Position numbers and translations under genes: made by a program. The notes below the pieces were generated by a model that was given only the letters and a program-made list of their open reading frames with translations, was not told the DNA's origin and made no database searches. Of a DNA stretch of 64,000 nucleotides, positions 1 to 63,445 are shown piece after piece. The stretch covers positions 806,001 to 870,000 of the forward strand of contig NW_024881540.1 in assembly GCF_019059575.1 (NCBI RefSeq), in the 5' to 3' direction. The first letter of the stretch is position 1. Each line of letters begins with the position of its first letter. Origin of the DNA: Amphibalanus amphitrite. Its lineage: Eukaryota > Arthropoda > Thecostraca > Balanomorpha > Balanidae.

Positions 1-767
1 GAGAGTTTTTCTCGAATAACTTTCGAATTAGTCAAGATAGGAACAAACTAAGGGCATCATCGTGATCCTCTCGTCAATCCGCATCGAATGATATATATGT
101 TGACCTCGAAAGGTCAAGGTCAAAGGTTGACCTCACGTCACGTGACCTCGAGGTAATCATGTATATCATTCGATGCGTCTTGACGAGCTGAACACAATGA
201 GACCATCCACGCGTCTATATCTTGTTCCTGTACGGAGTTATTGGCCAAAAACCTTTGGTGACCTTTGATGACGTCACATGACCTCACAGCTGCCCAACAG
301 CAAAACAGACCTCAAGGTAGTGAAGGTTGATCGTATATGAAGTTATGTATGGTATATGGGGCCATTCCGACCCGTTTTAGTGGTAAAAACAGGGAGTTGA
401 TTTTTCCCCCATTGACTTATAATGGGGAGGTCGCGAAACTGACCTGACCTTAGGACACCGATATCAAAATTCCGAGATATACAAATTGCACATACTGGTA
501 CCCTAACTAAAGCCTGAAGAGAAGAAATTGATCGGTCAAAAACTCTAGCTCTGGCGTGATTGCAAACTTTTCTGAGGTAGGGTCACCAAACCGCCTCTGG
601 TGACCTGACCTGAGGTCAGATCAACTCAAAATTTTCAGACATGTTGCGTAGAAGCCTTTTAGGAAAAGTCAGAAAATTTGAGCTTCCTAGCTCAACGCGT
701 TTGGGAGAAATAACCAAAAAACCTCAGGGGGGGGGGGGCTCCTGAGGCCCCCCCGCCAGGAATAGGG
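1..767 (-). mobile_element. G-hairpin element, left part cut by window edge
   Basis: Non-coding repeat. It is the reverse complement of most of the element at 11650-12638, running from the oligo-G/oligo-C hairpin at 726-755 back through the AGGTCA-rich interior. It ends in CCAGGAATAGGG followed by TTAA at 768-771, the expected flanking duplication. The other end lies outside the window. No protein-coding capacity is visible. Confidence 0.8.
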
Positions 768-771
768 TTAA

Positions 772-1508
772 GAGCCTCCCGATCAATTAAGAATGTTTCG
801 TTTGCTTCCGACAGCTGCTTTTTCAGAAATATGCAAAACGGTGCATTTACCGACAACTGCTGTAAATTGCGCCAGGGGGATGGCGCAATTAGAATCCAAT
901 TGCGCCCTATACTTAAACATGGCTAAGCGAATGAGACGGAATGCATGCACCCCGGCAGTGTAATGTCATTGCGGCTTACTTAAACATTTATAATGTTTAT
1001 CAGGCTGGATAAATAATAAATGTAAATTTAAATCGCGATGTTTTTTGCCCAGGTAAATAACTTAGCATGTGTCCGTATGTTTGTAAAAGTGCAACGAAAA
1101 CGTTTTATGTAACCGACTAGATATATGTGAAAGTATGCACCTATACGGTTAAATTTTCATTCGTTTCTCTCAAAATTATTAGTTCTTATCGTTTCGACAA
1201 CTTGTTGACATCAGTTTTTACTTTTTGATCATAGCTGTCACCCTCACGCCTGAGTCAATGTTGAAAATGCAGTATTTTGTGAATTACACCACAAGTTCGC
1301 AGCCTAAATGGCAGCTGCATTATAAGTTTGACGAGAGAAATAATTTGCGGACTGGCGACAGCGGTCTGCTCCTCTGCCTGGCATTAAGCTCTTTCTTTAT
1401 TGCAATCAGCTGATGATGCATTCATACTGTCGTGATACAATAGCTACACCATTATTCTATTTGCGCCCCCATGGCGCAATTGCCATGGGCGCAATTAGAA
1501 TTGAGGTA
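772..1508. other. Non-coding stretch with GCGCAATT palindromes
   Basis: AT-rich sequence without a recognisable gene. Two palindromes built on ATTGCGCC/GGCGCAAT stand out, at about 885-909 and 1461-1494. They may be the ends of a short unresolved repeat. Related GCGCAAT motifs recur at about 3770-3805. Confidence 0.4.
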
Positions 1509-2495
1509 GGGTAAGGTGCCTAATTAGCGACCCCCTTAATTTGAACAGTCATTGCTCACACTCTATGGGTGCCACTGTATTATTGGCTTGATTTTTGGAG
1601 AGATCTTTCATTTTTCTATTAAAATATAGTCATTTTCTGCCCCAAAATTCACTAACTTATTTGTAGTGAGCATTTTGGCAAACCATTGCAAAAAACGCTA
1701 ATAATAAAAACGCTTCCCGATTAGCGACCGGGGAGGGTCGCTAATAAGTCTATGGGTTTCCCCATATTAAAAATGGCAAAAAAATGCGATGCCTGAAAAG
1801 ATGAGATATGATCTCAAAAAGGTAACCTATATGCAAAGCACTCAATCACTCGAACAGGAACGTTTATCCAACACATTTACGTAAGTAAAAACTGATCACG
1901 TGATGCACCGAAGGCGAAAAGAAGGCGGAAACCCAAATTTTGCGGGCTATCTCGTACGATATTCGATGTCCGCGCTGAATTCGACACCCCTGCAGTCGGT
2001 GACGACTGACGACATTTGGCATCCCCTGTCACACATTGCAAGCTTCAGCAAAACCTCATTTTCATTTCTCTCTTTTCCCCTTTCTTTCCCTTCTTGAGCT
2101 ATTTGCGACCATGTCAGGCGCAAATAGGAAATATGAGTTGCGACACATTTTTAACCGCCATGCTGTGCACAGTTGAGCGATTCACTATGGGAAAACGGCA
2201 ATCAATTGAAAAAGGAATGTCGATTCAGAATAAAAAAGGTGCATCATCCTAATGTGCATCGCTTTTCATCAGAGAGGGCCCAAACACACACGTTTTGGAT
2301 AAGAAACTCGTCATTTTTATTTGAACTCACCTGAAACGTCCCACCAGAAACATCGACGACCGGAAAATAATTTAATTTGATAACCAAAGTATGGCTGACC
2401 TTTTGACGATATTTTTACCTCGTTTTCTCCTGCCAGTTTTTCTGTAGAGAGGTAGGTCGCAAATGGGAAAGGGTCGCTAATTAGGCACCTTACCC
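1509..2495. mobile_element. MITE-like element with 25-bp terminal inverted repeats
   Basis: The ends at 1509-1533 and 2471-2495 are inverted copies (GGGTAAGGTGCCTAATTAGC, continuing GACCC). Another GCGACC-type inverted motif lies inside near 1720-1745. No transposase is present; the short open frames inside match nothing I know. I could not find a convincing target duplication, so the superfamily is unassigned. Confidence 0.65.
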
Positions 2496-2504
2496 ACTTT
2501 TTAA

Positions 2505-3455
2505 CCCTCGCCCGTAAACGGCGATCTGCCACCTTCGCCCATGCAGGGGGGGGGGGGGGGGGGGGGTTGGTGCGACCCCCCCTTGGCGTTTGAAAACGGA
2601 GCGTCGTAGAGCTTAGCGGAAAAGACCAACGGATTGCTCTCGCCGAGATCTCGCGATTGGTGGTATATTTTTTGGTCCTAGGTCAACATTTGACCTACTT
2701 TTGACCGGTCAAAGGTCAAATTTTCGGGAAAATAGACTTTTTCAAATTTTCCGCGGCGATTGCGGCGAAACGGTGGGAGATATAGACTTGAAACCTTCAC
2801 TATCGTGTTCCTTGATCAATTCTCTATCGTTTGGTATGTATTTCGTTTCCCTAGCTCTAAAAATGGCGCGTTGGGAGCGCCGGAAGTCGGCAAGGTCACA
2901 GTCGGCGGCAGAAATTCGAAAAATCAAAATTTAAATTTTTGAAATCTGATTGTATTTTTGGATTTGGGATGTCCATTTGCTCCCCATAGAAGCTAATATT
3001 GCTGCATATTCCCATTGAGGTGACAAGAATTAGCAAAATAGTGGTTCGGGCGCTTTTCAAAAATAGTACCGGACGCTGTTCCTCTTGTGACGTCATAGCT
3101 CCGTGACCTGACCTGACCCGGTCAAGTTTCTTATACCATATGATAGCCAATACTTGCCCCAACATGCATGGGAAGTTTCATCACGATCCATCAACCGATG
3201 TCCGTACCACCGGCAGAAAACCTCGGGCGTTGGCACTCAGTTTGTGAAAATCCGGCCGGAGGCTGTTCCCTTTGTGACGTCATAACTCCGTGACCTGACA
3301 TGACCCGGTCAAATTTTTTTTTATCAAAAGATGCGCAAGGTTTGCCCCATAAGGTACCCAAAATTTGGCGGCGCTGCGCGCCGCCGTTTTTGCACTATTT
3401 CCGAAAAACCTCAGGGGGGGGGGGTTGCACCAACCCCCCCCTACATGGGCGAGGG
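2505..3455. mobile_element. G-hairpin element, complete, TTAA-flanked
   Basis: TTAA at 2501-2504 and 3456-3459 flank a 951-bp non-coding element. Its ends are inverted (CCCTCGCCC... and ...GGGCGAGGG). Each end carries an oligo-G / oligo-C stem-loop, near 2546-2583 and 3413-3441, with matching loop sequence TTGGTGC on inverted strands. The interior holds tgacctgacc runs and TGACGTCA. It was inserted immediately beside the 1509-2495 element. Confidence 0.85.
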
Positions 3456-3459
3456 TTAA

Positions 3460-5184: not shown

Positions 5185-5192
5185 GAGCAAAC

Positions 5193-6089: not shown

Positions 6090-6565
6090 ATGGAACCAGA
6101 TCGATACCTCTTTTTTTGACCAAGTCATAGCGAAAAAAAAACGTTCAAAATTGATGACGTCAAATTTTCAAACTCAATTTTTAGCAATTTTTGACCATGT
6201 AGCGCAAAACAAAGACCACCACTAGACTCGTGACGAGCTGCATCGAATCAATACCTACCCATTTGATGCAAATCTATCAACTTTGATGTTTGACCTTTTT
6301 GACCTGACATTGACCTGACCTCCGCCTAATGTAGTGACCTAAACCGCACCTGATGGTCTTATAACCAGCAACATTGAGCTGGACATGAAAAATTGGCCAT
6401 AAAACATGCATCGCACAACCCTAGTAAAGTTGGGTTCATGTGCTACTGCTGACCCTTATTGACCTGACCTGTGATCTGACCTGAAATTACCAGTGACCTC
6501 CAATAGCAACATTACAAGGAAACTTACGCCCAATCGCTAATTTTCGCGAAAATGCGTTTTACTGG
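6090..6565 (+). mobile_element. Fragment of a G-hairpin element interior
   Basis: Closely similar to the interior of the element at 53004-54196 (shared block gatcgatacctctttttttg..., gatgacgtcaaattttcaaa and the following AGGTCA/TGACC run). Neither hairpin end is present, so this is a fragment truncated on both sides. Confidence 0.7.
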
Positions 6566-10262: not shown

Positions 10263-13200
10263 GTAAGTATATCACGGGCGAAAGCATAGTGTGACTGTTC
10301 TTGAATGTTTTACTATAATAATTCTGAATGCAACCAGTAGCGCAATGTTCAACACATGTTGTTGATGGTCGTATCATTCAAAGTGCTATAGCACCTGGTG
10401 AGCGCACCTGTAGCACCTATAGCACCTGTTCTTGTTATACCGGATTATTGAGCCATGTTCACAGTTGTACATACCTGATTGGAAATAACCGGGTCATCGT
10501 GGCACGGGTCAGCGCGCTCTTCCTTCCAGCGTGCCCAACCCAGAGCCCCACTGTCCCACTCGGTGAAATCGGCCCGGCCAGGTGGCGGCCCACGTAACCC
10601 GACCATCCGGAGCTCGATAGCCTTGGGCCGTCGCCTGGCGCACCAGCGCCTGACCACAGACAATCGATAATGAATTAAAGGGACACTCCCACCTTAACAT
10701 TAGTTTTGAGTTGAGATAGCCAAATTGGTGGCCATGGCCTGCAAATACCGGTTTGGGTACTCACAACATCGACAAATGCTTTAATTCGGAGATTTGGAAT
10801 TTCAAACTTGCAGTTTTCGGATTCTAAAGGGCTAGTGCATTGGTATGCCCCCTTAGAATTTGTGACGTCAGCGGAGATCTAACGATTTTTAAATCTTTTA
10901 CTAAAACGTTTGGTAGCACGCGGTGGTATATGCTGCTTTGCGCGCAACAAATGCCGCACTTTCAAATAAAGTCGCTAGGAACAGCGGAGATCCCAAAAAG
11001 TAAACAAAAGTAAAAGTCTAATATCTTGAAAACCGGTGAATATTTTTCGATGAAATTTGGTAGATATTCGTTTTCGCTCTTCCTGAACCGAGCGACATCA
11101 CTTTCGTGCCAATTCATTAACTTTTTTGAAGGTGGGAGGGTCCCTTTAATGAAACGCCGACGATCCTGATGTCAACCTGACGGTCTGCTTCGTAGTTCTT
11201 CGGTAGCTCACGTGGACATATGGTAGCTAACTATGCGATAGCCTCCGATCCTCGGGGCGCACCTAACCCTTCACTGTCAGTGTCCGCTATCCAGTATAAC
11301 CATTCCCCTGTTCCGCGCCCAACAGCGGACGGTCAGCATCATCCGAATGAAGTGGCTCACACCGGAGCGGGCTCACGTGCGGTGGGGTGACCGTACTCGC
11401 AGCTGGATGGCCTGTCCATCGTGACGGACTCAGCCGCAGCGACGCACCAGGGCGGCAGTCCAAACCAATTTCCCCAATGCCCCATACGGCCATATCCATT
11501 CGCTCTGAAATTGTCTCACTAAATCGCGAGGTCCTAACCCAATAAAACAAAACAAATAGCCCCGGCTCGATCTATAACATACTGATCAAATTGTTTAATT
11601 TGCGATCGAGCTGATTAAAATGTCCAGGTGCCCAGATGCGTTGGTTTAACCCTATTCCTGGCGGGGGGGGGGCCTCAGGAGCCCCCCCCCTGAGGTTTTT
11701 TGGTTATTTCTCCCAAACGCGTTGAGCTAGGAGGCTAAAATTTTCTGACTTTTCCTATAAGGCTTCTACGCAACATGTCTGAAAATTTTGAGTTGATCTG
11801 ACCTCAGGTCAGGTCAACAGAGGCGGTTTGGTGACCCTACCTCAGAAAAGTTTGCAATCACGCCACAGCTAGAGTTTTTGACCGATCAATTTCTTCTCTT
11901 CAGGCTTTAGTTAGGGTACCAGTATGTGCAATTTGTATATCTCGGAATTTTGATATCGGTGACCTAAGGTCAGGTCAATTTCGCGACCTCCCCATTATAA
12001 GTCAATGGGGGGAAAAATCAACTCCCTGTTTTTACCACTAAAACGGGTCGGAATGGCACCATATCCCATACATGACTTCATATACGATCAACCTTCACTA
12101 CCTTGAGGTCTGTTTTGCTGTTGGGCAGCTGTGAGGTCATGTGACGTCATCAAAGGTCACCAAAGGTTTTTGGCCAATAACTCCGTACAGGGTCAAGATA
12201 CAGACGCGTGGATGGTCTCATTGTGTTCAGCTCGTCAAGACGCATCGAATGATATACATGATGACCTCGAGGTCACGTGACCTGAGGTCAACCTTTGACC
12301 TTGACCTTTCGAGGTCAACATATATATCATTCGATGCGGATTGACGAGAGGATCACGATGATGCCCTTAGTTTGCTCCTATCTTGACTAATTCGAAAGTT
12401 ATTCGAGAAAAACTCTCTCCATATCTAGCGCCGCCATTTTGACTTTTTCGACCCCTGTGACGTCATCTTTGACCTGACCTGAAAATGACCTTAGTAAAAA
12501 TTGTAGACCTTGTCCATGCGTATCCGATGCCGTTTACCGCTTGTCGCTATCTTGCTTCGTTCTCGAGATCTCAGGGGGGGGCCGAATCGGCCCCCCCCCG
12601 CCAGTTTCTTGTCCCGGCGGAGCCCGCCAGGAATAGGGTTAAATTCCAGCCAAGCACAAACAAGTAGTACCTATACGATCGATGCCTGTCGTCTGATCAT
12701 GATTCACTTCAACATTAAGTGTCCGCCGGTTTCCGGGGAACAACGCATAAGCTGACTGAACTGTCCAATGATATGTCACCGACAATTCTGCGATCCCGGC
12801 TCCAACTGAGATCGTCCATATTGCAACAGACGTAAACTGCATTACAATTAGCACGGATATACCTTTAGTTATATAGGGGGTGAGTGGCCGCTCACAAAAG
12901 GTTGTTAGGTGTACGTTGTAATTGTATATATTGTCTAACATTAACCCTCGCATGTGTAGGGGGGGGGGGGGTCGGATGGACCCCCCCCATGGTTTTTCGC
13001 GAATAACTCGCGTAAAAAGCGGCCGATCGCGACGAAACTTTCAGTACCCTCGCATTGATCAATTTTACACCTACCCTGAAAATTTCATGACCCTAACCCA
13101 AATGACCTTTGACCTGTGACCTCTTTTCCGAGACCATGTTTGGCCGGAATCGCGATTTCGCGTATGTCGGCTCGCACTAGCCGCGTGTTTGCAAGCTTCT

Positions 13201-49819: not shown

Positions 49820-49992
49820 GCAGAGCTACATGGCATATTAGGATATCCCATGTAGGGATATCAGGGGCATTGGGCTGTGCGGGAAACCGACAGTGATCCC
49901 GGGGGCGAGACCGTCCCAGTGCAGTGGGACCGGATTGCCCCGTTGGGACAGTCCGCCCGCCTCCCAAACGGTCATCCCGGAGAGGATTATAA

Positions 49993-51169
49993 CCCGCGCC
50001 CCACTGGGGGGGGCTATTTATAGCCCCCCTCCCGTTTTTCTGCAATAACTTCCAAACCGCTTGACGGATCGACGCCAAACTTTCAGTACCTTCGGCTGCA
50101 TCAATTTGACACCTTGTGTCAAAATTTGAACTTCGTAGCTACCATAGGTCGGCCGGAAATGACGTCAGAGTGACGTCATGTTCGTCCGATTTCGACGCAA
50201 AACATTGAACCACGGCAATCGCTCCCAAGAGCTCAGTTTTTAAGCCAGATCCAATTTCTTTGCATGAAAGGACTCAGAATTGACCGCGCTATCAAACTGC
50301 TATCTCGGATTTTCAAAATTTTGAAAATTTTGAAAATCGTATATAATAATATTCAAAATTTATATTTTTACATTTTTTTCAAAAAGTTTTTGACTTTTCG
50401 AAAAAAACCGGAATATATGTGACAGAACGCATGAATATGACTAACTCTAGCAAGTTTTAGCTAAATATCTTCAAAAATGGCCAAGTTATACGCATTATTG
50501 CAAAAAATTCACAATTATTAATTTTTCAAATCAATTTTTCAGTACGTATTTGACATCGTAGACCAATATAAATGGCACCATCGTGTTCCTGAGCTCAAAC
50601 TGCATCCAATAGACACCTTTTTTGTTGAAAAATTTTAACTTCAAAATTTGACCTTTTTTGACCTGAAAGTGACCTGACCTAAGCTAAATTCGACTCAAAA
50701 TGACCTCGAATGACACAGACGACATCAAATTCGAAATATATGGCCTAAATGGACCATAAAACATGTGTCACGTGACCGACGCATGATATAATATTTTCGT
50801 GACCTGTGATGACCTGACCCTGACCTGAAAATCAAAGTACAAGTTTGGTACCCTCAAGGTATCTAGAGCATCTGTTCACGAGTGTGGAAACCAAAAATGA
50901 GCCTGATCTGACTTGTAAGACGGCGGCCAGAGCCCAAAATATGAACAAGCCAAAGTGCTAATAATTTTTACTTTGACCTGACCTGTGACGTCATCGGTGA
51001 CCTCGAGGTCAATGAAATTAGGTTTCGCTCGACAGTTTTTCCGGGGCTATCAGACGCCGTTTGAATTTTGACGATCGGCCCAGTAGTTTCGGAGTTAGGA
51101 GGGGGGGGCTATGAATAGCCCCCCCCCCCCAGTAGGGCGTGTTATACACAGACCCCAGTGGGGCGCGGG
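49993..51169 (+). mobile_element. G-hairpin element, complete, ATAA-flanked
   Basis: Direct repeats ATAA at 49989-49992 and 51170-51173. Ends CCCGCGCCCCACTGGG / CCCAGTGGGGCGCGGG, perfectly inverted over 16 bp. Hairpins at 50005-50029 and 51102-51130 with the shared loop CTATTNATAG. The interior includes the common GCCAAACTTTCAGTACC block and TGACGTCA. Confidence 0.88.
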
Positions 51170-51592
51170 ATAACGGGTTCTGGTGTGGGCCCAACCTCAT
51201 CCACCGGTTGCTGGGAGAGCCCGGAAAGGGGGATGCGGATGAGTTGTCTTGAGGATGACGTGGACGGATGAAAGAATGAAAGTACAATAGGATCGCCGGG
51301 ATCATTCGGTGTTTTTGGCTGACACCGTGCACAACGGACATGACAACTATTTAGTAGAAGAGCCATAAGTGAATCAAAAGCAATATAAAATGTGACTAAT
51401 TTAATCAATGGTCCCTGCAATACCAAATATTTACCGGTGATCCAGGATAATCATCCCTCATTTTCCGGATGCCGAAACACACAAAAAATAATTACACTCT
51501 TCGGTTCTTCGGAGCCAAGTACTCCCGTTAAGATGCTTCATTATCTCACTCTTGCGCGCGTCACGTGTTGACCTACACTCGAACACTCTTAA

Positions 51593-52625
51593 CCCTCGCC
51601 GGACCTATTTATTGGTTTTCTACATACGCGCCGGCCGAGGGGGGGGGGCGGGTACGACCCCCCCTCGCCGTTTCGCCCCTGGTGCAGCTAGCGCGTCGCG
51701 GAAAAAACGAGCGTGTGCGCCGTTACGAAACGCAGAGATTGGGACACGATTTTAAGGTCCTAGGTCAACTGGTGACCTCTGAGGTCAGATCAAGTGCCCC
51801 AAGGTACGGTTCAGTTTTTGGTGAATAACTTCGCAAAAAACGGCCGCAGAGCCGCGATTTTGGCAGCATCGTGTTTACCTTGCTCAGGCGCGTCGAATGA
51901 TATACTTTTTGTCCGGGTCAGGTCAACTTGGGGTGTTGACCTCAGGTCAAGGTCAGGTCAGCACCCCCAGGTCACGAAGTTGGTCGAAAGAGGTCATGTC
52001 GCATATCATTCGATTCGGCAGGTCTTCCTGAGTCCATTGGTGGCTTTTCCGACTCGCTAGCTCAATTTGATCAAGAGTTATTGACGAAAAACTAATATGA
52101 CCTTGATGACGTCATAAATGACGTCACGCAAGGTCAACATTGCAAAAGTGACGCATCTAACCTTGCAAGGAGTGCATCAAATCACGATTCTGTGTGCTTG
52201 AGATAGTTGGAGATCGTTCCCGGCGCCAGAATAGCAGTTTTCATTTTTCCCCATTGACTTATAATGGTGAGGTCACGAAAATGACCTGACCTCATATGAC
52301 CTTTAGGAAAAATCCGAGACATACAAGTTGTGAGACTCATAATGGATACTAGATCCTGCAAGTTTCATTTCCCTGTGACATCTCCTCTGGCAGTGAGGGC
52401 GTTGCGAAGTTGCGACATCTGAACACCGTGCAGAGGTTCACTTATGACGCCATAGGTCAGTGACCTGACCTGACCCAAAAATGCGGTTGGTGTCAAAAGA
52501 TCCAGCTTGAATCAAAGGTCAGGTATGCCAAGTTTCAGCTCTCTATCACCAGCGTGTTCGGAGCTATCGCGAAAAAAACCCTATGGAGGGGGCGGCACCC
52601 GCCTCCCCCCCTCGGCCGGCGAGGG
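51593..52625 (+). mobile_element. G-hairpin element, complete, TTAA-flanked
   Basis: TTAA at 51589-51592 and 52626-52629. Ends CCCTCGCCGG / CCGGCGAGGG. Hairpins near 51639-51665 and 52583-52611 with GCGGGTNCG-type loops. The interior is related to 11650-12638. The right TTAA is shared with the MITE that starts at 52630. Confidence 0.85.
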
Positions 52626-52629
52626 TTAA

Positions 52630-54302
52630 AGGGACCCTCCCACCTTCAAAAAAGTTTATGAATTGGCATGAAAGTGATGTCGCTCGGTTCAGAAAGAGCG
52701 AAAACGAATATCTACCAAATTTCACCGAAAAATATTCACCGGTTTTCAAGATATTAGACTTACTTTTGTTTACTTTTTTGGGATCTCCGCTGTTTCTAGC
52801 GACTTTATATTAGAAGTGCGGCGTTTGCGGCAGATGTTGCGCGCAAATAGCATATACCACCGCGTGCTACAAAACGTTTTAGTCAAACATTAAAAAATCG
52901 TTAGATATCTGCGCTGACGTCACACATTCAGAGGGGTATTCCTAAGCATTAGCCCCTCTGAATCAAAATGCTGCAATTTTGAAATTCAATATTTCCGATT
53001 TAACCTTCCAGGCGGTGGGGGGGGGGGCATTTTTTTGCCCCCCCCCCCCTTTAGTTTTTTCGATATATCTCGAGAACCGCTGCGCCGATCGTCACCAAAC
53101 TTTCAGTACCCTCCCGGGAGCAGCTAGCGCACATGGTGACCAAAAATTTTTCCAAAGGCTATGATAGGTTGGCCGCTAATGACGTCAGAGTGACGTCATT
53201 TTTGCCATTTTCGACCCAAAAAAAGGTTTCGCGGGAAGAGCTGTCAGGCCTACAGCTTTAGAGATACAGAAAAATGTTACAGACATAAAAGGTGTGGAAT
53301 TAAAAGGGCTACAAAACTGCTATTTCGGTTTTTCGAATTTTTTGGATTTTGACCCCCAAAAGTCAAAAAATAGATTTTATAAATATAATAGCCAAAAAAT
53401 CCAAAAAGTTTTTTGAATTTCGGAAAAACCGGAATATATGTGATAGTCCCTACCGCCTTCTATCTACATACCAAATTTGAGATCGATACCTCTTTTTTTG
53501 GCCAAGTTATAGCGAAAAAACTGTTCAAAATTGATGACGTCAAATTTTCAAACTCTATTTTTGGCAATTCTAGACCTCGTAGCGCAAAACAAAGACCACC
53601 ATCAGACTCCCCGTGACGAGCTGCATCGAATCGATACCCATTTTATGCAAAAATATCAACTTTAAAATTTGACCTTTTTTGACCTGACCTTGACCTGACT
53701 TTCACCAGAAAGTGACCTAAACCGTACCTGATGGTCTTATAACCAACACCATTGAGTTGGAAATGAAAAACTGGCCATAAAACATGCATCGCATAACCTT
53801 AGTAAAGCTGGGCTCATTTGGTGACCCTTGGTGACCTTTGATGACCTGACCTGTGACCTGATCTGGTATGACCAGTGACCTCTAATAGCAACATATGTAC
53901 TAGACAACTGACGCCTTATCGCTGATTTTCGACAAAATGCGTTTTACTCGGTGTTATAGCACTTTCCCTAGAAGCCACGTGAACGGTGAAACATTTTATC
54001 TTTGACCTGACCTGTGACGTCATCGGTGACCCCGAGGTCAATGAAATTTGGTTTCCTTCGACAAATTTGACAGAGCTATCGAACGCCGTTTGAATTTTCC
54101 GGATCCATCCAGTAGTTTCGGAGATAGGGGGGGGGCAAAAAAGTGCCCCCCCCCCCACCGCGCGGAAGGTGGCTGGTAGGCCCACCGCCTGCCGGGTTAA
54201 GGCATTTCTCGATGTTGTGAGTGCCGAAACCGGTAATTGTGAGCCAGGGACCCCATTTTGGCTATCTCAACTCAAATCTAATGTTAAGGTGGGAGGGTCC
54301 CT
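52630..54302. mobile_element. TTAA MITE, copy 4, split by a G-hairpin element
   Basis: Halves 52630-52999 and 54201-54302 together correspond to copy 1 (5325-5802). The left TTAA is at 52626-52629; the right flank has decayed to TTAT (54303-54306). Confidence 0.85.
53004..54196 (+). mobile_element. G-hairpin element inserted in a MITE
   Basis: TTAA at 53000-53003 and 54197-54200. Copy 1 of the host MITE shows the empty site (gatTTAAggc at the matching place), proving a TTAA duplication. Ends CCTTCCAGGCGG / inverse of CCGCCTGCCGGG, with a second CGCGGAAGG block. Hairpins at 53016-53051 and 54127-54157 with A/T-run loops. Confidence 0.9.
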
Positions 54303-54538: not shown

Positions 54539-54592
54539 TTTAAGAGTGTGTCGAGTGTAGGTCAACACGTGACACGCGCAAGAGTGATTTAA

Positions 54593-55711
54593 CCCGCGCC
54601 CTGCTGGGGGGGGGGGGGTGTTTGAACACCCCTTGTGGTTTTTCGCAAATATCTCAAAGTGCCGCCGTTTTTGGTACACCTTATCATACATCAATTCTAC
54701 ACATGTGAAACTTTCACACCAAGGTCATTCAAGGTCAGGTCACCAGGTCACTTGAAGTGACCTCACCTCATAAAAAGTTTCAATGTCTGTCATAGCTACA
54801 CCGAGTGACTGATCGCTTTGAAACTTTCAGCGATTGCTAAGGTCAGGTCAATTTTGCGACCTCCCCATTTTAAGTCATTGGGAGAAAATTGAAATGCGCC
54901 TCTTTTGGACGAAAGATAATATAAACACTCTTAAACACTGAATTACAAGTGGTTTAGACACACTGAACATGAAAATGGTGGCCGTTACCCCTGTTTATGC
55001 CCTGAGGTCATCTTAGGTCACGAATAGTATCTAACAGTTTTTCGCAAATAACTTTTGACAGAGGCATGCTAGAGCAATGAAAACGCCTTAGATGTGTTCA
55101 GCTCGACGATACGGATCGACTGATATGCAACTTGACCCTTTCCGGTCAGGTCATGACCTTGACCTGAGGTCAAATTTTCAAGCTGACCTTTCAAGGTCAA
55201 GTTATAGTTCATTCGATGCGTCTTGACAAGAGAAACACGATGCCGGTAAAAGTAAGCTCGTACAAGGCTTGGGTCAAAAGTTATTGCAGAAAAACTGTTT
55301 CCGAAAAAATCGGCTATTTTTGCAGTTTTTGCTCCCTGCAGGCAAAACCGTTGACGTTAGGTCAAATCTGAGATAATTAATCAGAAAGGGCGTTAATAGG
55401 GCTATCGAATGCGCTTTCCCGCGACGCTGTAGCTCTATTGGTTCCCGATTTATGCGTTGGCTTCTTGGAAATTGTCGACATTCGACCTGGAAATCGGCGA
55501 AATTTTGCCTTCAATGACCTCTGGTGACCTGACCTTTGACCTGACCAAAAAATTGACCGAAGTGATTTCGTCATTATTTTTGACGCTCTTTCGAACGCCG
55601 CATTCCGCGTATCGCTACGTGGCCCAGGAGCCGAGTTAGAACGGGGGGGGGGGGTGTTCAAACACCCTCCCAGCAGGGCGTGGAAATCCAGGACACCCAG
55701 CCGGGCGTGGG
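54593..55711 (+). mobile_element. G-hairpin element, complete, TTAA-flanked
   Basis: TTAA at 54589-54592 and 55712-55715. Ends CCCGCGCCCTGCTGGG / inverse of the CCAGCCGGGCGTGGG type. Hairpins at 54605-54633 and 55643-55669 with the shared loop TGTTTGAACA. A truncated right-end relative is at 63339-63441. Confidence 0.87.
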
Positions 55712-55715
55712 TTAA

Positions 55716-56224: not shown

Positions 56225-56477
56225 ATGGGCCGGTTGAACTCTGAGACCCGTGCCGAAATGTCCCCCATGATGGGTGCCAAGGACAGCGTCACGATGAAGA
56301 AGGACCTGGGTGTGATGAACGGTGTCGCCATCATCGTCGGCATCATCATCGGCTCCGGCATTTTCGTGTCGCCCAAGGGTGTGCTGGTGTACTCGGGCTC
56401 CATCGGCCTGTCGCTGATCATCTGGGCGCTGTGCGGCCTGCTCTCGATGGTCGGCGCACTCTGCTACGCCGAGCTCG
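56225..56477 (+). CDS. Transporter gene 2, coding exon 1
   Basis: Residues 1-84 plus one base of Gly85. Donor GTAAGT at 56478. Contains TM1 and TM2. Confidence 0.9.
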
Positions 56478-59400
56478 GTAAGTGGCACCGCGCGAGCGCG
56501 CGCATTACTCGCGCCGCCGACCGCGCCACGCGGGGCGCCCCAGCTGTGCTCTAGCGCTGCGCAGCGTCCCACCGGAGCGGCGGCCGGCCCGTCACAGAGC
56601 CGCCCAGCGCGCCCGGCCCGCCGGCCAGCCAGCCATTGGCAGGAAATGAGGGCCTCAGGATGAACCACTTGCAATGAACGGCCGGCCGCTCCATGAGAGA
56701 CGGCGGTACGCCCGGACCCGGCCCCGGCACGTGGCGGTACGCCCGGACCCGGTCCTACGTCCGGACCCGGTCCGGCCCCGGCACGTGGCGGTACGGCCGG
56801 CCCCGGCCCCGGCACGTGTCAGTACGGCCGGTCGCGACCCGGCACGTGGCAGTACGGGTGGACCCGGCCCCTGCACGTGGCGCTACGGGTGGACCCGGCC
56901 CCGGCACGTGACAGTACGCCCGGGCCCGGACACGGTCCCAGCACGTGCCAGTATGGCGGGACCCGACCCTAGCACTGTCGGTACGCCGGACCCGGACAAG
57001 GCACGTGCTGGTACGGCCGGAGTGGGCCCCGGCACGTGGCCGTATGCCCAGACCTGGCCAGTGGCCACGGCAAGTCGTGGTATGCGGCTTTCGTGAGCCC
57101 CGCGGCACGTAGCAGTTAGAATAAAACCCAGTCGATTTTCCCGCAGAAAGCAAGACTAGAATTGTTTTCACCTAGTTGGCAAATAATTTCGACAGGGATC
57201 GTCCCAAAGCAAGGATCTTGGAATCATCTCTTTCTTCATACCAATCTCGAAAAATGCTTTATTTTGGTCCTGGGAAGTATCTTGACCTGAGATCAAGGTC
57301 GGGTCAAATAATACCTACCCGGCGGTCAGGCCAGGGAACATGCCAAGAAGGAAGTAAAACCGCGTGCCATTCGTTTTGCCACTGGTATACATACTTACAA
57401 AAGAAAAAGTAATGATCATATTATTAAGTGACCGCGATACAATCAGCTTAGGCCCTAGGGTCAAAAACGCAGAATAAGCATTGGACCAGCTAAGTGGCGT
57501 ATGAGAATGAGAAATGTCAGTTGTTACCTAGCATTGGGTATTTCAATCATGGCGCTAAAACCGAATTTTGCGTATTTTCCCCTTGTCAGCTATTGGGGAG
57601 TTTTTATGATTGCCCTGGACCAGACCCAATGCCATCTGTGGGAAAAAAAACTATAAACACGGTAGATAGTTGTACGAATTCGGGGGCTTGATTCTTTCAT
57701 TCAGGAGCTTGATTCTTTCTGTAAGACCAGAGATTGATGTTCTTACCAAGTTCTTACGAAAGAATATCTGGAAATGAGAGTTAAACAATCACGAGTAGGT
57801 ATAATGCGTTTCGAGCAGTTGTGGAAAACCGACAGTGGGGGCACCGATCTCGGCCGGGGAGGGTCAAATATGTATATGACTTTTTGTTTTAAATAGGGGA
57901 AAATACAAGGAAAAAAAAGAATGACCAATAACATGGCAGTGAATGTGAATATATATCGGTAATAATAATATAGGTAATATGTATTTATACAGTCATCATG
58001 ATAAAAGTACCTATCATCCTCCTAATGAAAATAAGTGGAATTTGTATACACTTCAACATTTGTTTTTGAATTTCAGGAGTACATTGTGAATGGCATATCG
58101 TAAATCGCTGAGAATCTTATCATTTATGATGCTTTTAGATATAGGCCCTGACATGAATATCCCCATCTGGATTCAATGTGTTCTTTCCGTGTTTCCTGTT
58201 TGACGGGGATCTGTCAGTTTCGGCGACTTCTGATGTAAACAATTCATCGCATGTGATCAGCACCAGGCACCAATTGTTGGGGACGGGGATGTCAACGGTT
58301 CCTATAGCGCTCAGATTTTAAACATTTGGACAAATAATTACTGCAAATCATGTCTAAATACCACGAAAGCGGAACAATGCCTACCAACGGGCGTGCGGTA
58401 TGCAGTATGATGCGTACCTACTCGTTTGGTAGGCATTCATTGAGCGGCGCGCGCAAGGCGAGACTTGCCAAATTTGCGGTCCGCGCCAATTTTGTCGTGG
58501 ATATTGTTACGAAGTTTAAAACGACATCCGTTTAAAAAGACATAAATTAAACTGAAAAGGTGTCTACAGTCCCTTACCAATAATGAACAATTTATCAATT
58601 AACCTTCGCCCCAGTGGGGGGGGGGCATATGTTACCACCCTGTCGCGTTTTTCGCGTGTAAATAAAAAAGCGCGGCGCGTAGCGCCGCGCCGCTTGGGGT
58701 AGCTTTTTGTACATCAATTTTGGACAATGTGTGAAATTTTTGACCCCAGGTCATGTCAGGTCAGGTCACCAGGTCAAGTTAACTGACCAAGCCTAAAAAA
58801 AAGTTTGCAATCATGTCCAGCCTGCAGTGTTTGTCAGAAAGGTTTCAAACTTGGTGGATTGCATGATGTTATAGGCGCCTACAATTTGTATATCTCGGAT
58901 TTTTTATATACGTGACCTAAGGTCAGGTCAGTGGCGTGACCTTACCATTATAAGGCAATGGAGAAAAATGAAAATGCCTCTAGATCCGTGTGTACGCATA
59001 GGAACAGTCCAAATATTTCAGAATCACAATGATTTAGTCCACTCGTGATGACCAAGGTGTCATTTTTGCTGATAGCCTCTAGACAGGTCATCCGAGGTCA
59101 CTTGAGGCTACAAACAGTTTTTTGCCAATAACTCGCGATTGGAAAGAGATAGAACGCTGGGGATGGTCTCATTGTGTTTGTCTTGTTGAGACGCATCGAC
59201 TGATATGCAACATGACCTTTTCCGGTCAGGTCATGACCTTGACCTGAGGTCAAATTTTCAAGTTGACCTTTCAAGGTCAAATTATAGTTCATTCGACGCG
59301 TCTCGGCGAGGGGAACACGATTCTGGCAATAGAAATGCCGTGGCTTTTTGTAGTCAAAAGTTATTGTCGAAAAACACTTTTCGTAAAAACAGCTATTTTT

Positions 59401-62400
59401 GGAGTTTTTGCCCTCTGGAGGCTAAACTGTTGACCTGAGGTCAATATTGATAATAATCTTTTCAAAAGAAGAGCTCAAAAGCTATCGTTTGCTGTTCCAT
59501 GCGTTTTTCTAGCTACCATAGTTCCTGAGATAGCGGCATGTTTTCTGAAAAATATAATGACAATTGGCAAATTTTGACCTTTGATGACCTCTGGTGACCC
59601 CAATATTGCTCTAAGGTGAAAAATGACTGAAATACTTTCAAACGTACGCATTGAGAGCTATCGACTGCTTTTTACCGCGTCTTTCTATCCCTCTTCGTTT
59701 TTGAGTTAGAGGTGGGTGGTAACATATGCCCCCCCACTAGGGCGAAGTTGGCTGAAACCGCCACTGGGGCGCGGGTTAATTGTTCAATTACCTAATTTAA
59801 TTGACTCAGTTACCTAAGTTTGTTAGAAGACATATGGATGTTGATAGGATACCTATAGCTGTAACAATAGCTGAGGACAGGGACGACTTGACTTTTCAAT
59901 TGTTTCGTCCCCTCAGCCTATGTGTCTGGTCATATCTCTCAGCTCCTGGTTCACTCGGTATAGGGGGCCCGAGGCTCCGTGCCGGGGCACGTGGGCCGCG
60001 GCTGGCCGGCGGCTATCGGCCGGTCGGCGCCGGCCGCGGCCATATGGCTGCTCGGGCCGGCCATGTGGCGCGCGCCGGGGGGCGGCTGCTTTTTGTCGAA
60101 TAGCGCGGCTCGCGCCGCCGCCGGGTCCAGCGGCCACTGCAGTCTCTGTGATCGGCGCGGAGACAAGATGCTGGCCCCCCGGGCGGCCGCCCTCCGCCCT
60201 GCGCCGGCCCGGCGCTATACCATGTCCAAGATAAACCATGCTTCAGTGGTGCCGCCGTGTGTTACCATGCAGTGCAAGCCGTTATGCATAAATAGCAACT
60301 CGGCATTGGAATTTTGAAGCTGATGGCATTTCCTTGTCATTCTGCTCTATCTCTCCTACGTGCATTATTTATTGCCCAGGGAAAATTCATTCTGCATTAA
60401 TGTCATTTTTTATTTACTCGGGAACGTTCCAGTGTTCATGTCAGTAGTCGAGCGTTCATATAGTTCATACTCATGCCCTGTTTGACGTGGGGGTTGGGGC
60501 AGCCAGCCGCCAGGACATATACGAATTACGGAAGTCTATACATAGACTGATGCGTTTGTTGTACAGAGTCCGGCATAAGTTTTCTCTTCTTAAAAATGTG
60601 CTCTCTAAGTACCTATAAGAGGCAGCGATCCTTTTTTTTAAATTCGAAAAAAACTTTTGCGATTTTTTGGCTATTAAAAAAAAAATACTTTTTTGATTTA
60701 AGAGGGTCAAAATCCAAACCTATCAGATCCTCTGAAAAAAATCTGGTTAGAATGTGTAAAATTGATGCGCGGAGGGGCCCTGAAAGTTTGGTGACGAGTT
60801 GACGACATCTGCAGCTGTTTAGGAGATAGATATCGACGGGAAAGGACAGGGGGGGGGGGCGTTTCGCCCCCACCCCCCACCCCCACCTTACGGGGCGCGG
60901 GTTAAGCCCGCAGGAGCCGTATAGTCAACTACAGAATGATGTTCCACTTTTCACAGACAATTATTTGCCTGGAGTGGTAGACTGTGCCACATCACACAGG
61001 TTGAGTTCACAAATTATAGCTTTGTCCCAATGCTCACAATTGACACGCCTTAATTGCGTGATAAACGGCAAAACTTGCGCTCCAGTCAACTGATAGCTTC
61101 GGAGTGGAACATCATTCGGTAGTCGACTATACTTCATGCTATTTTTTTATAGTTACGGCAATCATTCTTGATCCACATACCTAATGAAATGCATTTTTGG
61201 TTCATGTTGAAAATTGGTGCATTGGCATTACCATGTTCCATTTTGTCGGTGGTTCCACGAATGTCACGCAGAGTAGAGTGACTCTTGACATAGCTTGGTG
61301 ACAAAAAAAAAAAAAACGCTGATGCAGCGTTCGAGGAGGGAGCCAACAGCGCCAGCAAGAAGCCTACTCGTACACCGGAGCGCTTCTGTCGGACATGTTT
61401 ACCCCGGCTTATCACAGCTCTGTAATCATATGTTTCGCCCTTTGTTCAGTTTGTGCCGTTTTTAGGTTGACATATTCGGTAGATCTTTTTATACAAGCGC
61501 CACGCGCCTAAGACCAATATCCAATACAAACATTGTTTCCGGGAACTTTTTCATAAATTTAGCTCGAATATTTGAATGGGCGATTTGACAGCGGGAACCC
61601 ACGCTACGCAGACTTTGTTACCTCCCTGGTCCCCTACAGTCCAATCGTGTGGTTATTCATACTTTCGGGAAGATTTGGAATTCGGATGCCGTGCAAAGCA
61701 GGACTCGGTCCGTCCCACCGACCGATCAACCGTTGTTCTATATACCCTGGATCGACCGGCCGTGACTGTTCCCACCACCCGGCGCCATTCCAGTCAGGAG
61801 TTTCGTATCGCCGGCAACTCGAATCCGGGCACTGACTACCGCGGGGGCCAACGCTCTATCAACTGGGCTACTGAACGGTCAAAAAGCCACGAGAATTCTG
61901 CTCTTTTGGGTGGTGCTATTCGCCAGGACGAGCCACGAGATTTTTATGCTCACTGGCTACACCGACAGATCGACCGCTTTATAGATTTCAGCAATGCCAA
62001 CTATACGGAAAAGTAGGCGAACCCTGACCATCGTATTTTTTTTTTTTGTATAAAACATGTCTTTGTAAATAAAATGGCATCATTTGTTCCATTGTGAAAC
62101 TTGTATAACATATATTGATTTGGTTGTAGAGAAAATTAGATGCAGTGGCACCATGCGCTCCTGGGTTCGGGATCTACAAAAAACTTTTCTCGATAACTAC
62201 TCGTATGACCATTTTGTGGACAAAATAGCTCAGAAGATCAATGCGGGCCCGTTATTTGGCTTTTTAGCCGGTGTTGCCATTAGAATTTCTTTACTGGAAA
62301 TGCCGGTTTCTCAGAGCGTGGTGTAGATCTGGCTGGGTTTAGGTAGGCTATAGCCACTGGCGGTTGCATTGCGGCACAGTCTACCTTCTGTAATAGACTG

Positions 62401-63135
62401 CCGCATACTGCAGCCCTTCTACAGTTTACCTATGCCCACAGAATCTCCGCAGATTAGCCGCCGGTTTCTGGTCAAGTGACCTTAAGGCGACGTCAGTAGA
62501 TGGGAACGGGGCCGGGGGGGGGGGAGACGATGGGAAGACTGCAAGATGGGAGAGGGTTAAAATCGATTTGAATTTCATTGCCGCATGAAACATGCCTTGA
62601 AACCCACGACATTCGTAACAATACAAATATGGGTTTAATTTAGTCGTCTTCATCCTGAACTAAAGTAAAATTTAGCACAATCGGACGGTATATGGGTCTG
62701 TCCCTGGGCCTGCGTAACAAGCTCTGCTTGACATGGATCCCGTTACTCTGGGATCCCGTTCTACCTACTCGTTCATTCAACCATTCGATCTCACTTTAAA
62801 AGATATCGTTTCTTGAAAAAAGCAGTTAATTGACCCCAATACAGGTGTATCATGCAGTTTGACTCCGTCGCCTGCACAGCGCTCAGTTGGTGACAGCGGC
62901 GCGTCTCTGCCCACAGGCACCATGATCCCGCGGTCGGGCGGCGACTTCGCCTACATTCACGAATCGTTCGGGCCGCTGCCGGCGTTTCTGTTCCTGTGGG
63001 TGGCGCTGCTCATCATCATGCCGACCGGTAACGCCATCCAGGCGCTCACCTTCGCGTACTACATGCTGCAGCCCTTCTACAACACCTGTCACCCGCCGGA
63101 CGACGTGGTCCGGCTGGTGGCCGCCATGGTTATTT
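56225..63135 (+). CDS. Second SLC7-family amino-acid transporter, 5' part (two exons)
   Basis: Exons 56225-56477 and 62917-63135, joined in phase within a Gly codon, encode the first 157 residues; the gene continues past the window. The ATG has A at -3 and G at +4; an internal Met12 is an alternative. Motifs: [15 protein letters not shown] in TM1 (41-54), GALCYAELG (77-85), [11 protein letters not shown] (90-100), [11 protein letters not shown], and Cys142 in YNTCHPP at the heavy-chain disulfide position. It is a tandem paralogue of the gene at 9824-45418, in the same orientation. Differences such as [10 protein letters not shown] in TM4 against [10 protein letters not shown] in gene 1 suggest a different substrate preference, which is an inference. 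Confidence 0.9.
56700..57070 (+). repeat. GC-rich minisatellite with CACGTG in most units
   Basis: About ten diverged units of roughly 30-40 bp built on CCCGGCACGTGGCNGTACGG plus CGGACCCGG. It begins about 220 bp after exon 1 of gene 2. Open frames through it on both strands are repetitive artefacts. Confidence 0.8.
58603..59775 (+). mobile_element. G-hairpin element, complete, TTAA-flanked
   Basis: TTAA at 58599-58602 and 59776-59779. Ends CCTTCGCCCCAGTGGGG / inverse of CCACTGGGGCGCGGG. Hairpin loop CATATGTTACCACC at the left and its inverse at the right (59713-59737). The interior has GGTCAGGTCA runs and is related to 54593-55711. Confidence 0.86.
59960..60240. promoter_or_regulatory. Intronic CpG island
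   Basis: Short block of very high GC and CpG content inside intron 1 of gene 2, with CGGCCG/GGCCGGCC motifs and no transposon termini. It could be an alternative promoter, an enhancer or an older repeat. No splice or coding evidence. Confidence 0.35.
60690..60901 (+). mobile_element. Right-end fragment of a G-hairpin element
   Basis: Hairpin at 60849-60875 (loop CGTTTCG), right end CGGGGCGCGGG and TTAA at 60902-60905, preceded by the gacgagttgacga / gagatagatatcg block typical of right ends. No left end found. Confidence 0.65.
60919..61132. mobile_element. 214-bp MITE-like element
   Basis: Ends GTATAGTC(a/g)ACTAC and GAATGATGTTCCACT are inverted at 60919-60950 and 61101-61132. Internally similar to 46355-46512. 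No clear target duplication. Confidence 0.65.
61803..61880 (-). pseudogene. tRNA-like sequence (SINE head)
   Basis: Minus strand carries TAGCCCAGTTGATAGAGCG (A-box region) and GGATTCGAGTTGC (B-box-like) at tRNA spacing. Surrounding open frames on the plus strand are unlikely to be genes. Confidence 0.45.
62917..63135 (+). CDS. Transporter gene 2, coding exon 2
   Basis: Acceptor cccacag ending at 62916, donor GTGAGT at 63136. Encodes Gly85 (completed) to Ile157: [17 protein letters not shown]3, TM4 and Cys142. Ends one base into a codon, the same phase and place as exon 1 of gene 1 (after AAICI / AAMVI). Confidence 0.92.
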
Positions 63136-63338
63136 GTGAGTACCGACCATCCAACCCCTTCAGAACACGCTCCGTTTTTTATGATTTTAGCACACGCGAC
63201 TTTGTTGTTGCAATGATGGTGAGCACTAAATGATGCCTCCATTATTTATTGGCAGAAGTTGTCAAAAACTAGGAATGCAGATCGCTTACTGGCTATCAAA
63301 TGAGATCATTGTAGGATGTCGGCTAGCTTAGAAAAGCG
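63136..63338. other. Start of intron 2 of transporter gene 2
   Basis: No feature recognised. Confidence 0.4.
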
Positions 63339-63441
63339 GCCGAGTTAGAAGGGGGGGGGGGTGCTCTGTGTTCCCAGCCAGATCTTAACCCCCCCCCCGC
63401 AGCAGGGCGTGGAAATCCAGAAACCCCCAGCGGGACGCGGG
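63339..63441 (+). mobile_element. Right-end fragment of a G-hairpin element
   Basis: Matches the right end of 54593-55711 (GAGTTAGAA, G-run, GCAGGGCGTGGAAATCCAG, ...GACGCGG). TTAA at 63442-63445. The loop is different and there is no left part. Confidence 0.65.
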
Positions 63442-63445
63442 TTAA

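Follow-up and report, generated by a model that had tools for sequence, protein, structure and literature searches.

The G/C-capped elements found throughout the 64,000-nucleotide stretch of Amphibalanus amphitrite DNA analysed here (the window) are non-autonomous piggyBac transposons and do not constitute a new superfamily. We consider it probable that they carry two-part, matched addresses at their ends, that their interiors have been exchanged between families, and that these interiors form a nucleosome-scale array for host factors. At least some of the elements would be deletion derivatives, mobilised by piggyBac transposases of one clade whose genes lie in the same genome. The first part of the address, the arm (about bp 5-14), would be read by the transposase core, and the second, a palindrome of G-run, loop and C-run, by a dimer of the C-terminal cysteine-rich domain. 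The left end would hold one such module, and the right end the tip and arm, a spacer, and the module repeated some 27 bp deeper inside.

We propose that a single transposase lineage has to read both ends, which is why they match, and that address sets turn over as a unit, one interior being found under different complete sets. Interiors would pass from family to family, probably through break repair or template switching within G/C tracts that the families share; a matched pair of ends could then gain a new interior in one event. Within the interior, clusters of AGGTCA (or TGACGTCA) stand every ~165-190 bp, with ~140 bp of rhythmically AT-stepped DNA between them. We would guess that the clusters lie in linkers and are bound by host factors, which hold the element as an ordered, open array and so make it easier to reach the two ends and bring them together.

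Elements in the window and the layout of their ends

The initial annotation of this DNA had quoted eight copies with a common layout, in which an NTAA duplication, a short inverted arm, a G/C hairpin and an AGGTCA-rich interior are followed by the mirror image. The shared layout is present in all eight copies, and each has the same 4 bp on both sides (TTAA in five, ATAA in two, CTAA in one); simple mirror symmetry does not hold, as one end is short and the other long. A strict script run over the window returned eight complete elements, including five of the quoted copies. It missed 20231..20827, 54589..55715 and 58599..59779, where G/C runs are interrupted or arms are different, and these were accepted on their visible end sequences. 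The features are listed below by position in the window.

1..771, minus strand: copy of the 11646 family, truncated by the window start; inverted repeats
2501..3459, minus strand: 951-bp element flanked by TTAA; strict script; short end at right; loops TTGGTGCAA / TTGGTGCGA
11646..12642, plus strand: 989-bp element, TTAA; strict script; poorly matched loops, CCTCAGGAG / CCGATTCGG
12941..13837, plus strand: 889-bp element, TTAA; strict script; called m12941; interior 92-94% identical to those of L074 and L061:22-910
20231..20827, plus strand: 589-bp element, ATAA on both sides; without AGGTCA; TGACGTCA pairs close to both ends
33596..36098, minus strand: host element, TTAA, interrupted by the nested 33686..34908; strict script
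33686..34908, plus strand: 1215-bp element, CTAA on both sides, nested in 33596..36098; strict script; identical loops, TCGGATCCGA
49989..51173, plus strand: 1177-bp element, ATAA on both sides; strict script; loops CTATTTATAG / CTATTCATAG
50006..50029, plus strand: short-end G-run, palindromic loop and C-run of 49989..51173, read from the sequence; putative CRD-dimer site
51101..51130, plus strand: long-end G-run, loop and C-run of 49989..51173, read from the sequence
51589..52629, minus strand: 1033-bp element, TTAA; strict script; five AGGTCA clusters, spacing 162-190 bp
53000..54200, plus strand: 1193-bp element, TTAA; strict script; interior 89% like L073, arms differ
54589..55715, plus strand: 1119-bp element, TTAA; ends read by eye; identical loops, TGTTTGAACA
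58599..59779, plus strand: 1173-bp element, TTAA; ends read by eye; identical loops, CATATGTTACCA

At the short end 13-15 nt precede the G-run, loop and C-run; at the long end 39-46 nt do so. The short end consists of an arm and a G/C palindrome. In 17 of 18 parsed elements the long end repeats this module 26-28 bp deeper inside, the long-minus-short offset being 27 in 13 of the 18. Four of 22 elements were left out of this parse, three with a non-TTAA target and one with an interrupted G run. Genome-wide, the pattern TAACCC N6-16 G7 N6-12 C5 matched 18,759 times on the forward strand (807.55 Mb) against five times for a reversed control, and 53,641 times, overlapping variants included, on the reverse strand against six. 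A T precedes 17,991 of the 18,759 forward short-end matches, giving TTAA as the target in these. Element tips read CCCT, CCTT, CCCG or CCCA, with a variable fourth letter and with CC imposed by the search patterns; the piggyBac terminal motif is given as CC[C/T]T in the coral study (PMC2872659).

G runs are 5 to 23 long among the end pairs inspected, and at least 26 different short-end loops occur within this one genome. By sequence alone, a hairpin and a duplex palindrome are indistinguishable. Palindromy extends into the loops: 69 of 84 outer loop positions are paired across 28 families, some of them with few copies, against an expectation of 29 under random reassignment of the 3' triplets (0 of 100,000). 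Arms agree at 0.755-0.915 within a family and at 0.33-0.36 between families (0 of 20,000). The palindrome had been suggested to be part of a functional terminus, and the data favour this, palindromic pairing being kept while the letters change and both ends changing together between families.

Transposase partners and known relatives

Autonomous partners with ends of this kind, for which the initial annotation had proposed to search, exist in the same genome. Complete TTAA-flanked elements with G/C palindromes surround PF13843 frames at L039, L040, L042 and L054, the Pfam match being confirmed on rerun for L040 and L054. Both ends are also present, with nested inserts, at L044 and at L036, where the flanks differ in one base. 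L055 has one end only; its missing long end was looked for in the L060 sequence and not found. The L040 and L054 proteins match the Trichoplusia ni piggyBac transposase (6x67) with E-values of 2.2e-78 and 1.3e-56, in alignments that span most of the length and reach the last cysteine of the C-terminal cysteine-rich stretch. This domain is present in both; the L039 frame diverges before it and the L055 frame stops before it. TVDE/TIDE, TADR/TMDR and GGVD line up with TIDE, TCDN and GGVD of T. ni; the D residues in them would be the catalytic ones.

In a transposase tree of 35 different frames of at least 480 aa, drawn from 50 loci of which seven with shorter frames were dropped, the seven rows assigned to this group fall together on a single branch (100/100), apart from the 28 others. 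Labels were set beforehand, by both ends for four of the seven (L039, L040, L042, L054), by the cysteine-rich tail alone for L036, by the tail and one end for L044, and by one end for L055. Ends on both sides of L044 and L036 were found subsequently; a second end of L055 was not. At least five transposase lineages with different arms are present and, as frames were taken from 50 of the 116 PF13843 matches, many non-autonomous families stand without a shown partner. Extra copies of lineages A and B have ends on one side at C42, C171 and C257 and on both sides at C431; at L076 the long end was looked for and not found, and this locus was left out. In the window, 2501..3459 is 81-87% similar to the autonomous ends of lineage A inside the arms, and 58599..59779 is 72% identical over 712 bp to autonomous lineage B (L054).

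Among the top 30 PF13843 matches, one, L036, belongs to this clade. Both ends were resolved in 18 of the other 29 (L009, L010, L013-L016, L019, L021-L023, L025-L029, L031, L032, L035), and these have CCCATTA-type or other tips without a G/C palindrome at their own ends; the lower-ranked L046 and L047, also resolved at both ends, likewise have such tips and no G/C palindrome. An element with an 867-aa ORF at 23976..27809 was rejected as a partner, with a flanking repeat of ~9 bp and different tips; a Pfam search of it gave no family.

The earlier statement that no described family has this layout was too strong. The partners encode piggyBac transposases, and a TTAA target, a palindromic internal repeat and a short/long offset make up the published design of moth piggyBac (PMC7351741, in the portion available to us); a named family matching these elements could exist. 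In that same portion, T. ni piggyBac (LE35/RE63) likewise has TTAA and asymmetric ends, which the authors of its structure termed a puzzling arrangement, together with a palindromic repeat of 19 bp, internal as it is here, and a right end that repeats the module further in. The difference between LE35 and RE63 is 28, against 27 here, the T. ni offset being taken from the published description with the DNA itself unaligned. The present elements differ in having a palindrome of G5+/C5+ runs that enclose a variable core of 8-13 nt, in the variety of short-end loops within one genome (at least 26), in their interior motif arrays, and in a cysteine-rich tail ~12 residues longer between its first and middle cysteines. 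The T. ni tip is also CCC, and piggyBac elements excise seamlessly by way of TTAA hairpin intermediates. Sola3 and other TTAA superfamilies have a transposase type of their own.

Kolobok shares the TTAA target and was rejected, its termini being 5'-RR and YY-3' in the excerpt available (PMC9587614) against CC...GG here. piggyBat of Myotis lucifugus likewise has a motif read by the core and then a palindrome read by two C-terminal domains; in the accessible part of its description, the palindrome has no equivalent at the right end and the C-terminal domain folds differently from the one in piggyBac (PMC11707139). Phmmer alignment to 9c0f was weaker than to 6x67 and ends before the tail. The CMITE elements of Acropora corals are likewise piggyBac-type MITEs with TTAA and with an interior more conserved between families than the TIRs. 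However, they are ~100 bp long with 13-14 bp TIRs, and neither a G/C palindrome nor a module offset is described in what was available of their report (PMC2872659).

Matched ends and proposed exchange of interiors

Loops had been reported to match within each copy, and the two ends do usually agree, although not universally: agreement scores are 0.89-1.0 in nine of 15 families and only 0.56-0.67 in the other six, as in the 11646 family (CCTCAGGAG vs CCGATTCGG). The comparison of loop identity that had been called for gave 0.82 within families and 0.50 between them (15 families; 0 of 100,000 permutations); this and the palindromy test used one row per family, with loops and arms entered by hand. 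All eight copies of the 951-bp family that were examined (the window copy and seven others, from 41 full-length places listed) carry the same loops, with a constant one-letter difference between the ends, TTGGTGCAA and TTGGTGCGA. Loop sequence is a property of the family and not of the copy. The idea that each copy homogenises its own ends is not supported. In L008, of the same family, a T interrupts the C-run after the loop.

The interiors of m12941, L074 and L061 (in the last, L061:22-910 matches) are 0.907-0.944 identical and their ends 0.71-0.78, L074 and L061 having other arms and loops. Next to the m12941-type interior, the L074 arm is found on 730+689 short ends and the m12941 arm on 916+918. 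The two ends of the element that encloses the L036 transposase match L074 at 97% (197 nt) and 95% (168 nt) identity. As one interior, 91-94% identical, stands under different complete end-sets, the ends behave as swappable addresses.

Three other accounts of these ends deserve consideration. The strength of the palindromes, with G runs of 5 to 23, would suit a single-stranded DNA or cruciform terminus, of a rolling-circle or hairpin-primed kind for example, in place of a duplex protein site; TTAA duplications, CC...GG tips and a DDE-type transposase partner make this very improbable, as does the position of the palindrome 13-15 or 39-46 nt inside the tip and not at it. A palindrome at a comparable place in piggyBac is bound as duplex by two cysteine-rich domains, according to the part of the structural report at hand (PMC7351741), and by this analogy the palindrome here is most likely a site for a dimer of the transposase C-terminal zinc domain. 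Gene conversion that equalises both ends of each copy would produce the agreement of ends seen within families, yet it is hardly credible when the same between-end difference is kept in all eight copies of the 951-bp family and when the 11646 and 33596 families retain badly matching loops. Somewhat unlikely, though of more weight, is the view that families with the same interior are sister autonomous lineages whose new ends evolved gradually: at least five transposase lineages have different arms, and distinct lineages with different ends and related interiors would mimic swapping without any exchange. However, the variable arm parts of m12941, L074 and L061 are dissimilar at 91-94% interior identity, and they differ simultaneously in all three arm copies, the boundary falling at the G/C tracts on either side.

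Across dozens of families in one genome the 27-bp offset stays nearly constant, even as arms and palindromes turn over. With several of the transposases at hand as well, these families offer a natural data set for the recognition code of the core and the cysteine-rich domain, which may also serve the search for orthogonal piggyBac tools.

Motif clusters and rhythm of the interior

The description of the interiors as rich in AGGTCA is borne out: the motif occurs 139 times in ten window elements that total 10,408 bp (13.4/kb) and 91 times in the remaining 53,592 bp (1.7/kb). The motif is absent from two of the 13 families first examined (20231 and L050m), is missing near the short end in five of 12 interior groups, and can be replaced by TGACGTCA, as in the pairs of the 20231 element. 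These motifs occur in autonomous and non-autonomous members, and AGGTCA and TGACGTCA are classic nuclear-receptor and CREB/ATF sites. Clusters lie ~168 bp apart, with 32 of 34 gaps within 135-215; because L072, L073, L074 and L061 share interiors with discovery families, this count uses one family from each of 12 interior groups, grouped by judgement. Motifs are directed inward from both ends (134/171 and 79/101). In the null for motif placement, placements failing 500 tries reverted to the observed ones, which makes it conservative. In 11 of 11 family pairs, conservation is higher within clusters than in the DNA that separates them, by a margin as small as 0.002; the pairs were hand-chosen and overlap, and the clusters were defined by motif content.

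The DNA between clusters, ~139 bp long, has a 10.25-bp AA/TT-type rhythm at twice background, a period picked after the peak was seen in the first set, and this rhythm is absent from other piggyBac ends and from DNA outside the elements. Motif-free stretches of 60-250 bp were taken, and the rhythm test was limited to those of 100-200 bp. A second set of families was picked by short-end sequence with interiors unseen (L061 came in with its flank); as four of its seven families share an interior with a discovery family, it is only partly independent. Its 18 stretches gave a broad peak at 10.0, with 0.612 against 0.588 for the largest of 100 shuffles. We found no SS-dinucleotide rhythm in the interiors and no clear 165-bp wave of GC content around AGGTCA clusters.

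Spacing and rhythm suggest a nucleosome-like organisation of the interior. We tentatively raise the possibility, without calling it likely, of a transposon clade with a chromatin programme of its own: a nucleosome-sized, rotationally phased interior array with host-factor clusters in linkers, whose spacing would stay fixed though sequence and motif (AGGTCA, TGACGTCA, G-runs) change, on a chassis with interchangeable matched end addresses, such that several transposase lineages could move one interior. If true, nucleosome phasing would have evolved as a transposon trait; matched, swappable end tags combined with regulatory-looking motifs at about nucleosome spacing would be unusual if confirmed. 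Judging by titles and the openings of abstracts, the literature listed held no paper on chromatin-scale transposon interiors or on G-tract piggyBac ends.

The ~165-bp spacing might instead have been left behind by the tandem duplication of a monomer and play no part in chromatin. L040, L054 and m2501 resemble themselves when shifted by 187 bp, and m58599 does so weakly at 176, which speaks for duplication. Such tandem similarity, with 187 bp as the main shift, occurs in four of 15 elements, so some of the spacing may have this origin. As an explanation of the whole it appears doubtful, given that 11 of the 15 have no 50-nt window of 66% self-identity at shifts of 80-329, that clusters are better conserved than intervening DNA in all the chosen pairs, and that the 10.25-bp rhythm between clusters is confined to these elements in the comparison with other piggyBac ends and outside DNA. 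Alternatively, the clusters could be accessory sites of the transposase, akin to subterminal repeats; the inward orientation of the motifs from both ends and their presence in autonomous and non-autonomous members alike would agree with this. We think it unlikely, because the 20231 element and L050m lack AGGTCA despite having the same kind of ends, because another motif can replace it, and because both motifs are familiar as nuclear-receptor and CREB/ATF sites, which would suit binding by host factors.

Transposase partners and the build of the ends

The elements capped by G/C palindromes (G-run, loop and C-run) are a piggyBac clade, and so do not represent a new kind of transposon. Searching this genome with PF13843, the piggyBac transposase family, gave 116 matches, of which 50 were fetched for study. 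Autonomous partners with such ends, for which the initial annotation had proposed a search, occur as the complete elements of lineages A and B below; two further elements had both ends located after the transposase tree was made.

Autonomous elements with G/C palindromes
L039, L040, L042 (lineage A): complete TTAA-flanked elements of ~3,965 bp, G/C palindromes around the PF13843 match
L054 (lineage B): complete TTAA-flanked element of 4,715 bp, G/C palindromes around the PF13843 match
C702:33509-39481 (L044): both ends located after the tree, TTAA on each side, nested non-autonomous copies inside
C778:130624-137199 (L036): both ends located after the tree, flanks differing by one base, nested non-autonomous copies inside

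The open frames of L040 (674 aa) and L054 (666 aa) both match PF13843 and align with the solved T. ni piggyBac transposase as far as the last cysteine; that of L039 diverges ahead of the Cys-rich tail. A tree was built from 35 different frames of at least 480 aa, 7 of the 50 loci being left out for shorter frames; in it the G/C-palindrome transposases form a single branch of seven rows with support 100/100. Four of these rows had been assigned to the group from both of their ends. The tail had placed L036, tail and one end L044, and one end L055, for which a second end was looked for and not found. The own ends of 20 other piggyBac loci, as resolved by script, lack a G/C palindrome and have tips of the CCCATTA type or other. 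Judged by eye, the piggyBac elements at L009, L035, L046 and L047 also carry, near bp 15-35 of one end, a palindrome in other letters (e.g. GTGTCCTCATATGAGGACAC).

All eight copies quoted in the initial annotation were recovered, each with identical NTAA on both flanks, but their ends, described there as mirror images, differ in build. From the tip inward, the short end consists of tip and arm (13-15 nt), G-run, loop and C-run, and the long end of tip and arm, spacer, a second arm copy, G-run, loop and C-run, the palindrome lying 39-46 nt from the tip. A script parsed 18 of the 22 elements submitted to it, which represent 20 non-autonomous families plus two autonomous elements; the offset between the two ends is 27 bp in 13, 26-28 bp in 17 and 32 bp in one. 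The forward strand of the 807.55-Mb assembly contains 18,759 matches to the short-end pattern and 5 to a reversed control; as the reverse-strand count includes overlapping variants, we infer some 37,000 short ends on both strands, if these are alike. The target is TTAA, with other bases in about 4% of cases: 17,991 of the 18,759 forward matches have a T before TAACCC. Flanks other than TTAA occur in three of the eight quoted copies.

In moth piggyBac, a palindromic 19-bp repeat occupies bp 17-33 of the left end, where the Cys-rich C-terminal domain binds it as a dimer, and bp 34-63 of the right end come close to repeating left-end bp 7-35 (PMC7351741). In piggyBat, the transposase core reads a motif at bp 11-16, and two C-terminal domains read the palindrome that follows (PMC11707139). 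Compared with these accounts, the barnacle elements show the same order of parts at almost the same offset, and G5-loop9-C5 also measures 19 bp.

Inheritance and probable exchange of end sequences

G-runs range from 7 to 23 G among copies of the 951-bp family (m2501, window 2501..3459) while the loop is constant, a pattern to be expected if slippage meets no constraint and recognition involves just the inner part of the palindrome. In the short-end loops of 28 families, 69 of 84 outer positions (three per loop) are complementary to their counterparts; redealing the 3' triplets gives 29 (0 of 100,000). The first position has C-G and T-A pairs, and the second and third have pairs in all four orders. 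Palindromy is thus retained while the letters turn over.

The proposal that both ends of a copy carry the same loop held in part: nine of 15 families score at least 0.89 and the other six only 0.56-0.67. Loop agreement is 0.82 within families and 0.50 between them (15 families; 0 of 100,000 permutations). Arms agree within a family at 0.915 (short with long-outer), 0.789 (short with long-inner) and 0.755 (long-outer with long-inner), against 0.33-0.36 between families, an excess reached in 0 of 20,000. Homogenisation within each copy, as also suggested, is contradicted by the 951-bp family, in which 8/8 fetched copies have identical loops and keep one same difference between their ends; agreement is thus inherited by the family and not remade in each copy.

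End addresses also appear to have been swapped between families. The interiors of m12941, L074 and L061:22-910 are 91-94% identical as far as the C-run and G-run of both palindromes, and the variable part of the arm differs in all three arm copies, as do the loops, those of m12941 and L061 having their outer letters in common. L074 is a deletion derivative of the autonomous element that surrounds the L036 transposase, matching its two ends at 97% (197 nt) and 95% (168 nt). With the interior next to the short end held fixed, the L074 arm occurs at 730+689 genomic places and the m12941 arm at 916+918. In further cases, L073 and m53000 are 89% alike over 1,156 nt, from nt 15 to 45 nt short of the end; m2501 is 81-87% alike to lineage A, with the arms outside the similarity on both sides; L072 and m11646 share 96% over 682 nt, with one boundary near the long-end palindrome and the other within the element. 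Coral CMITEs likewise have interiors better conserved than their TIRs (PMC2872659). In the simplest single event, an element with matched ends would take up a different interior by way of the shared G/C tracts. Gradual change would have to replace five segments together; unsampled sister autonomous lineages behind the families with the same interior and different ends remain a rival to exchange.

Spacing within the interiors

The AGGTCA richness noted initially was borne out, at 13.4/kb in ten window elements against 1.7/kb outside; eight other piggyBac elements have 0-1.5/kb. The hexamers are grouped into clusters. Of the pair distances between 60 and 260 bp, those of 130-210 bp make up 385 of 451 in the first 13 families examined and 281 of 322 in seven further families (null 0.47 and 0 of 2000 placements in each). 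When each of the 12 interior groups is represented by a single family, the gap from one cluster centre to the next is 135-215 bp in 32 of 34 cases (median 168; null 0.34; 0 of 2000). Measured from the long tip, the last cluster is 166-200 bp away in 11/12 (all but L077); measured from the short tip, the first is 150-184 bp away in 7/12. The other five have no AGGTCA there; four of them (m49989, m53000, L071 and L075) carry TGACGTCA at 171-191 instead, and the fifth, m33686, does not. Motifs point inward in 134/171 and 79/101 cases. Two families contain no AGGTCA. In m20231, TGACGTCA stands at 158/169 and 389/400; in L050m there are G or C runs at 188, 350, 511 and 684.

L040, L054 and m2501 show tandem similarity at 187 bp, so duplication may first have given the spacing. 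In L040:515-4485 (autonomous, lineage A) this similarity lies in the non-coding ends, with TGACGTCA at element positions 176, 364, 551 and 745. The array occupies only part of L077:11-1052, which lacks AGGTCA in its long-end half, and of L042m (L042:4528-5706), which has a 513-bp gap. Outside complete elements, clusters ~165-200 bp apart at window 6291-6494, 7502-7700 and 19966-20206 are probably decayed copies.

The motif-free DNA includes 58 stretches of 60-250 bp, whose median length is 139 bp (quartiles 121 and 151). Their AA/TT/AT/TA steps follow a 10.25-bp rhythm, a period picked after the peak was seen, with power 0.708 (35 stretches), 0.612 in the second set (18 stretches), which peaks broadly at 10.0, and 0.679 with one family per interior group (33 stretches). 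Dinucleotide shuffles give about 0.36 (largest of 100: 0.526, 0.588 and 0.500 for the 35-, 18- and 33-stretch sets), outside DNA 0.327 (largest of 500 samples 0.443) and the ends of other piggyBacs 0.378. GC-type steps in these stretches show no rhythm, and GC content no clear wave. Judged from sequence, the interior has the appearance expected of a nucleosome array whose linkers are bound by factors.

Among the papers listed in literature searches, most of them judged by title and opening of the abstract, none described G-tract piggyBac ends or nucleosome-spaced transposon interiors. As far as seen, the G/C palindromes and the large set of swappable matched addresses are new, and the newest feature would be the nucleosome-scale interior, which the initial annotation saw only as "AGGTCA-rich".

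Other features of the window

Further elements and exons
23976-27809: 3.8-kb element with 258-bp inverted repeats (99%) and direct repeat AAGTGTCAT at its flanks
30072-31211: 379-aa open frame, Tc1/mariner-like, weak DDE_3 match just below the curated cut-off
9743-10291: amino-acid permease-type exon, AA_permease_2 match
55937-56554 and 62817-63233: amino-acid permease-type exons, judged by eye

The 3.8-kb element is perhaps an unclassified DNA transposon; the 867-aa open frame on its minus strand has no Pfam match at E 0.1. The permease-type exons probably belong to a multi-copy host gene family.
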